Shown here one piece after another: positions 27,266 to 34,162 of a stretch of DNA of 37,823 nt; position 1 is the first letter of the stretch, and each line of letters starts with the position of its first letter. The DNA is from Actinomycetota bacterium (GTDB lineage Bacteria > Actinomycetota > Thermoleophilia > Gaiellales > F1-60-MAGs149), in the NCBI GenBank assembly GCA_947478745.1, contig CANJXE010000006.1, positions 1-37,823 on the forward strand, in the 5' to 3' direction. The notes below the pieces were generated by a model. It saw only the letters and a list, made by a program, of their open reading frames with translations. It was not told where the DNA came from and did no database searches. The translations under genes were made by a program, and so were the position numbers.

Positions 27266-28204
27266 TCAGGGACTGAGGAACTGCAGGGTGAGCGCCGTCT
27301 GCTGCCCGACGCCGAGAACCTGGAGGTCGCCGCCCGACCCCTGACGGGCTGCGAGCGCCACGGCCTGACCGGCCTCCAGATGCAGCAGGCTGCTCAGCGA
27401 GATCGCCGAGGGCTCACCGGGCGCCGTGATCGCGCTCTGCGCCTCCCCGAAGTACGGACTGTCCGGACTCCCCGCAGGCACGACCCAGACGGCGCGCAGG
27501 CCCGAGCCGTTGCTCTGGAAGACCACGCTGCCCGTCACCTGGTACACCCCGGTCACCGGTGCCGTCAGCCGCGTCGGCTGCGCCGTCGACCAGACGCCGC
27601 CCTGCGTGTAGGCGACGTCGGTCATCGGCAGCTCCGCAATCTGCCCGTTGGCGATCGCGATCGGCGCCGAGCGGTAGACCCGAGCGCCCGGCAGCGGCGC
27701 CAGCTCGGTCACGCCCACGGCGCCCGCCGCAAGCTCGCTCGCCCCCACCCCGCCCGCGGCGATCTGGCCCCGGCCGATGCTGTTGGGCGCGATCTTGGCC
27801 GCCCCGATCGAGCCGTCGGCGATGTCGCCCGCCCGCACGGCGCCCGTGGCCAGCTCGTCGGAGCCGACGGCGCCCGCGGCGATCTCGCTCTTGCCGACCG
27901 CACCCGTGGCGATCTGCACGGCGCGGACGCTGCCGTTGGCCAATCCCGGCTGGGGGTATGTGCCCGTCAGCACGCCACCGGCGCGGATGCCCTTGAGGTT
28001 CGCGCGCGCGACCTGGCCCTTGGCGAAGGCCGTGTAGCGCAGCGAGCCCTGACGCACCTTGGCGTTGGTGACGGCACCGTTTCTCAACTGGCCCGTGCCG
28101 ATCAGCGCCGTGGCGGCCGAGCCGAGCGCTGGCAGCGCGGCACCGACGGCGAGCATGAGCACGATCAGCGCGGCCAGACGGCGCCGGGTGAACAGGGTCT
28201 GCAT
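27266..28204 (-). CDS. Secreted repeat-stalk protein with a C-terminal C1q/TNF-like jelly-roll candidate domain
   Basis: Signal peptide [31 protein letters not shown]; degenerate 10-residue repeats [35 protein letters not shown]-terminal beta-rich region [21 protein letters not shown]... Confidence 0.65.
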
Positions 28205-28438
28205 GGGGTACTCCCTCTGGATTGCGAGAGAATTGTGACGCTCGTCCCGCCGTTCGACAACCCCCCGCGGCAGATCGGCTCCTGCGCCTGTGCCACCGCC
28301 TGCGTCCTGACAATGGATAGAGCCCTGACCGCCACCGCCGTGACCGGGAACGGATGCTGTCCGCCCACGCGATGGAGAAGTCCGCCATCGCCTACTCGGC
28401 GCGTGCACTGAGCAGGCGCCCACTGCGATACTGGGGTC

Positions 28439-28957
28439 ATGGAGTTCCCCGACCTGACCCTCCCCCGTGCCGGCGGCGGCACCGTCTCCCGCGCGGACCT
28501 CGCCGGGCGACCGTGGATCGTCTACCTGTCGCGGCACCCCGGTTGACCGGTCTGCCAGCGCCACCTCCGCCGTGCCGTGGAGGCCAAGACCGCGATCCGC
28601 GAGGCCGGGGCCGACCTGCTGGTCGTGCTGCCCACGTCTGCGGGCCGCGCTGAGGGCTGGAGGCAGGCCAACGGAGCCTGGGACGTGACCGTGATCGGCG
28701 ACGAGGACCGCACGCTCTACCGCGCGCTCGGCGTCGGCAGGGGCACGCCCCGCAACCTGCTGCTCGACCCGCGCTCGTGGCGCGAGGCCGCCGGCGAGCT
28801 GCGGCACGGCCGCTTCGCGATGAAGCACCGCAACGACGACGGCTTCCAGCTCGGCGCCGACATCGTGCTCGACGCGGAAGGCCGCGTGGCGTTCATCCAT
28901 CGCCCCGCGACGGCCGCAGATCGCGTGCCCGTGGCGGAGCTGCTGGCGCGGGTCTGA
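28439..28957 (+). CDS. AhpC/TSA-like (peroxiredoxin-like) protein with an in-frame TGA at the first position of CxxC; candidate selenoprotein
   Basis: MEFPDLTLPRAGGGTVSRADLAGRPWIVYLSRHPG-[TGA 28544-28546]-PVCQRHLRRAVEAKTAIREAGADLLVVLPTS...; single in-frame stop, frame then open to 28957. Confidence 0.7.
28548..28592 (+). promoter_or_regulatory. Candidate bacterial SECIS-like hairpin just 3' of the in-frame TGA
   Basis: Outer stem CGGUCU/AGACCG; upper stem CCUCCGC/GUGGAGG (one G-U) with 6-nt loop CGUGCC, 24 nt after UGA. Confidence 0.5.
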
Positions 28958-29033: not shown

Positions 29034-29150
29034 GGGATGCGACTAAGGGGTCAGACCCTTTCGTCGCATCAACCGCAGCTTGCCCTCCTTCTCCGAGCAT
29101 CAAGCTGGGCGGCCATGCGACGAAAGGGTCTGACCCCTTAGTCGCATCCC
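29034..29150. repeat. 117-nt inverted-repeat element with perfect 36-bp arms
   Basis: GGGATGCGACTAAGGGGTCAGACCCTTTCGTCGCAT (29034-29069) is the exact reverse complement of 29115-29150. Confidence 0.97.
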
Positions 29151-29157
29151 ACCAATG

Positions 29158-29202
29158 AAAAAGGCCCCCGTCTCCCCGGCAGCTGCCGGGGAGACGGGGG
29201 CC
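29158..29202 (-). terminator. Intrinsic terminator downstream of rpoC
   Basis: Perfect 40-bp palindrome GGCCCCCGTCTCCCCGGCAG|CTGCCGGGGAGACGGGGGCC followed on the minus strand by TTTTT. Confidence 0.93.
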
Positions 29203-29218
29203 CTGTTCCTCGCTGTGA

Positions 29219-34162
<4,944 letters not shown>

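Follow-up and report, generated by a model that had tools for sequence, protein, structure and literature searches.

Shchedrina and colleagues reportedly described, in 2007, UxxU as the motif of selenoprotein L (SelL), and SelL-like proteins in which one selenocysteine (Sec) is replaced by Cys are said to have been noted already in that description. A 2026 inventory of 119 prokaryotic families contains the prokaryotic 'Peroxiredoxin-like family protein' cd02970 with the motif UxxS (PMC13188914, Table 1), a type of domain described as PF13911 (PMC9312934), and a 'Redoxin family protein' with UxxC, which corresponds to PF08534 and to Prx-like 3 of the GOS paper, where it was found to be more abundant in marine samples. 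Different Sec motifs are counted as different subfamilies (PMC13188914). A 2016 survey further lists a 'ULPU-containing selenoprotein' (PMC5029168).

The window, i.e. the whole stretch of 37,823 nucleotides analysed here, is contig C6 of a metagenome genome of 1.65 Mb that is 87.65% complete. On its plus strand, a frame running from ATG 28439 to the terminal TGA at 28955-28957 contains a sole internal stop, the TGA at 28544-28546, which is residue 36 and the first position of the UxxC redox motif RHPGUPVC (Table 1). The initial annotation had pointed out both this frame with its single internal stop and the position of the TGA on the first residue of a redox motif, and both observations were borne out: the protein sequence it quoted is exact, and homologs have Cys or TGA in that column. 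It was also correct that the open-reading-frame list begins the gene only at GTG 28577, by which the N-terminus and the active site are lost.

Table 1. Coordinates of the predicted selenoprotein gene, its putative recoding elements and its neighbours in the window.
Feature	Coordinates	Strand	Evidence
Predicted selenoprotein gene of 172 aa plus stop with Sec at residue 36; thioredoxin fold, SelL-related/PRXL2-like	28439..28957	+	frame reading, homologs, profile matches, predicted structure
UGA codon predicted to be read as Sec, first residue of UPVC	28544..28546	+	TGA in 48/55 homologs, TGC/TGT in 7
TGC, Cys39, second (putatively resolving) residue of UxxC	28553..28555	+	aligned to C47 of human PGFS, Sec36 to C44
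Predicted SECIS hairpin, 5' arm CCUCCGC	28564..28570	+	folding, re-draw test
Predicted SECIS apical loop CGUGCC, second position G followed by U	28571..28576	+	24 nt after UGA
Predicted SECIS hairpin, 3' arm GUGGAGG, contains spurious GTG start	28577..28583	+	folding, ORF list
Divergent neighbour, repeat-type protein, hydrophobic N-terminus, 312 aa	27266..28204	-	conserved neighbour in genus
rpoC, convergent neighbour	29219..34162	-	identified from gene order and by inspection; arrangement shared by genus members

To NCBIfam NF040769, 'SelL-related redox protein', the product matched over its full length (residues 3-171, E 3.8e-25) with UxxC, CxxC and one UxxU form falling in the same columns; its 88.5 bits lie under the curated cut-off of 120, which within the order only the distant member G038 exceeds (121.6 bits). 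In contrast to SelL with its two Sec, the protein would have one Sec and one Cys, and where SelL sensu stricto has UxxU, it has UPVC. Pfam AhpC-TSA_2 (PF13911), the PRXL2 family to which human prostamide/prostaglandin F synthase (PGFS) and vertebrate SelU belong, scored 50.7 against a gathering threshold of 27, and Pfam AhpC-TSA also scored above its threshold. In the AlphaFold model (pLDDT 92.5, pTM 0.88) Sec36 lies directly before helix 37-48, and the best full-length relative in the PDB was the PRXL2-type human PGFS (TM-score 0.74/0.78), aligned over profile positions 8-167 with U36/C39 on C44/C47. Ranking by Foldseek E-value alone placed PrxQ/BCP and AhpC entries of similar lengths first, with lower TM-scores. 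Identity to PGFS is about 20%, however, PGFS carries Cys where the bacterial form has Sec, and prostaglandin-type substrates find no support here. The motif is RHxxUxxC, and the PxxxTxxC(U) of typical peroxiredoxins (AhpC/Prx1, PrxQ) is absent. The cd02970 protein belongs by description to the same domain family and also has Sec first in its motif, but its second residue is Ser instead of Cys, which sets it apart by description. We read the product as a UxxC selenoprotein of the SelL/PRXL2-like group. The AhpC-like, SelU/PRXL2-type name in the initial annotation was close: PGFS is the best full-length match in the PDB, and among sequence families the SelL-related redox protein fits best.

Homologs were collected from members of the same order and by a scan of GTDB genomes, together giving 55 distinct sequences. 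A locus scan with the single protein as query gave no match, at least partly because a Cys codon was built into its pattern HPGCPVCQ, and it was the scan with the A2 clade alignment that gave homologs; the GTDB scan is biased, since the patterns derived from one clade and one of them expected a Cys codon. TGA occurred at the exact column in 48 of the 55 and Cys (TGC or TGT) in 7, counts that are not independent because the homologs are related to each other. In the comparison proposed by the initial annotation the relatives were thus mostly TGA and not all Cys. The TGA was conserved at 31-90% identity, i.e. down to about 31%. The named carriers of the gene bear the labels Thermoleophilia, Acidimicrobiia/Acidimicrobiales, Miltoncostaea, Dehalococcoidia and Myxococcales, and many of the relatives found have the motif ULPC. 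Further in-frame stops were confined to L138 (Myxococcales, JAAFIF010000110.1), which has two in-frame TGAs in RHLRULAU, a UxxU form like the double-Sec motif of selenoprotein L. When another 299 genomes from the class were sampled and TGA was counted per match irrespective of its column, there were again matches with one TGA and matches without any, remote members included. A plasmid search gave nothing but matches at about 34% identity.

A hairpin at 28564-28583, starting 17 nt past the UGA, fits the bacterial SECIS model of PMC13188914, which asks for a loop of 3-9 nt, a stem of 4-16 bp, a G within the first two loop positions, a distance of 16-37 nt to the UGA and an MFE <= -7.5: it has a 6-nt loop, a 7-bp stem, a distance of 24 nt and -11.8 kcal/mol. 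The free energy alone is unremarkable for GC-rich code (mean z -0.86; 3 of 48 sequences below 0.05), and because energy is weak evidence in such code a motif-specific synonymous re-draw test was used, its statistic chosen after the GU loop had already been noticed. By this test a hairpin with a GU-type loop was present in 35 of the 48 Sec genes (11.6 expected from synonymous codon re-draws) and, at another position, in one of the 7 Cys genes (0.3 expected); 13 of the 48 Sec genes had no hairpin of the tested form. Within the genus the Sec relatives conserve the 20-nt hairpin, and an almost identical one stands in L031, which comes from another family and whose protein is about 46% identical; in two further clades the CGUG loop sits on other stems. 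The hairpin of the two nearest Cys genes is weakened or broken: L026 retains 6 of 7 stem pairs, three of them G-U, L032 retains 5 of 7, and their best local folds are other structures of -5.6 and -3.3 kcal/mol versus -11.8. Since dozens of relatives retain the TGA and most of them also a readthrough-type hairpin, we infer that the UGA is almost certainly decoded as Sec.

Profile searches for the selenium machinery, which the initial annotation had called for, were successful in part. The genome encodes selB (322.7 bits including the C-terminal part, cut-off 242), selA (493 bits), which adjoins selB on contig C31, and selD (324 bits) on C24, all scoring above curated cut-offs, but no tRNA-Sec (selC) over the Rfam cut-off was found in the incomplete assembly, in which the best RF01852 matches are ordinary tRNAs. 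Six congeneric genomes, that of the nearest relative G003 among them, carry a tRNA-Sec(TCA) of the expected length (57.9-59.6 bits), and the selC-bearing stretch of G003 has no real counterpart in the assembly studied here; the simplest reading is that selC was lost through incomplete assembly. G003 also carries a formate dehydrogenase alpha gene with a canonical Sec codon in NRTUHAPS (L147, G003:C18:4160-6028), which indicates that UGA recoding is very probably used in the genus, and the formate dehydrogenases of G001 and G004 have Cys (ARVCHSP) in its place, a second Sec/Cys difference within the genus. Of the 14 genomes carrying the TGA form, 11 had a selA match, and the 6 genomes carrying the Cys form had none (Fisher p = 0.0022), an association that is supportive only, because the genomes are related (4 of the 6 Cys genomes are of one genus) and incomplete. 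One genome, G012, has the TGA gene and tRNA-Sec with no selA match in an assembly that is itself incomplete (87%).

Two alternatives named in the initial annotation, a pseudogene (a Cys gene whose TGC recently became a nonsense TGA) and a sequencing error, were not borne out, given the TGA in 48 of 55 homologs and the purifying selection on the gene. The sister species G007 does have TGC at this codon in the same locus, which would fit a recently mutated Cys gene, but the TGA is common to G003, G001, G004, G009 and G012 and to distant genera. The dN/dS ratio against G003 was 0.16 before the TGA and 0.11 after it, well below 1 on both sides, and GC3 was 0.91 and 0.94, respectively, indicating that the part after the stop is translated protein under constraint instead of decaying sequence. 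A tree built without the Sec column requires at least four Sec/Cys changes, and the G007 Cys gene, which occupies the same syntenic position as the Sec genes of the genus, is nested in a Sec clade, so that Cys looks derived in G007. The pseudogene was therefore rejected as extremely improbable. A sequencing or assembly error at 28544-28546, conceivable for a sequence from a single metagenome assembly, has practically no probability left, since dozens of assemblies made independently from other species have TGA at this codon, which excludes it.

Decoding of the UGA by a suppressor tRNA that inserts another amino acid (Cys or Trp) is also very unlikely, as is the production of only a short peptide and a GTG-started fragment. 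Cys-inserting tRNA-Sec variants are known elsewhere, and selC was not seen in this assembly, yet selA, selB and selD are present, the tRNA-Sec(TCA) of congeners has the expected length, and Sec relatives preserve the SECIS-like hairpin, which the nearest Cys relatives have only in weakened or broken form. GTG 28577 is not a plausible start, because it falls within the 3' arm of the predicted hairpin and translation from there would leave out the active site. Selenocysteine is thus supported as the reading of the UGA, as the initial annotation had proposed; of the three observations it had named as speaking against Sec, namely a complete genome without selB/selC, an error in the codon, and relatives all Cys with decay of this copy, none held, selB being present in the incomplete assembly and selC in six congeners.

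For Sec incorporation, the hairpin downstream of the UGA would bind SelB carrying Sec-tRNA(Sec), which SelA would make from Ser-tRNA and selenophosphate supplied by SelD, and residue 36 would be filled by Sec. Placed at the N-terminal end of helix 37-48, the Sec36 selenol would then attack an oxidised substrate, of which a peroxide or a disulfide is the likeliest; Cys39 would resolve the adduct as a Se-S bond, and a thioredoxin- or mycothiol-type reductant would reopen that bond. The PGFS-like fold together with RHxxUxxC in place of PxxxTxxC suggests a selenol/thiol oxidoreductase with such a Se-S intermediate, and reduction of peroxides or disulfides is, with moderate confidence, the activity that we would assign, the cycle and substrate being deduced from fold and motif. 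The product is probably cytosolic, with no export signal recognizable by eye, and the neighbours (rpoC, an exported-looking protein and rpsL) gave no hint of function.

The locus lies between rpoC and rpsL in the genus. A 544-aa open reading frame at 27266-28900 is an open-frame over-extension of the divergent neighbour across the gene. By eye, TGCGATACT (28425-28438) stands a few bases upstream of the ATG, and comparable TGCGAT motifs are suggested by the translations of the upstream regions in G003 and G012; transcription may start from an extended -10 promoter and give a leaderless mRNA. Downstream, a perfect 36-bp inverted repeat with arms 45 nt apart occupies 29034-29150. Its core AAGGGGTCAGACCCTTTCGTCGCAT has 31 copies in this genome with <=2 mismatches, 16 in forward and 15 in reverse orientation and most of them arranged in opposed pairs at a distance of about 60-70 bp, while 6 degenerate copies occur in G003, one in G007 and none in three other congeners; it is a REPIN- or MITE-like element multiplied in this lineage. 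A GC-rich palindrome without a spacer between its arms (29147-29218), located between the gene and rpoC, looks like a bidirectional terminator.

Neither the 2026 inventory nor the 2016 survey has an entry named as an actinobacterial UxxC SelL/PRXL2-like protein, and a literature search found no paper on Thermoleophilia selenoproteins. The 'Redoxin family protein' shares UxxC in a redoxin-like domain, and the ULPU in the name of the 'ULPU-containing selenoprotein' compares with the ULPC of many homologs collected for this analysis; a prior listing under one of these names, both of which were compared by description only, is possible. On balance we lean slightly towards an undescribed and widespread actinobacterial SelL/PRXL2-like RHxxUxxC subfamily (Thermoleophilia, Acidimicrobiia), in which Sec would be usual and at least some Cys forms would be secondary losses that accompany the disappearance of the selenium machinery and an eroding SECIS hairpin.

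The family is likely missing or broken in databases, because ordinary gene calling cuts it after residue 35 or starts it past the active site. The gene would add an oxidoreductase selenoprotein to the Actinomycetota, and the genus offers a natural experiment in which, at the same rpoC-rpsL locus, several species have Sec with the hairpin and another has Cys with an eroded hairpin, a comparison that lets the gain and loss of Sec be traced at the nucleotide level.
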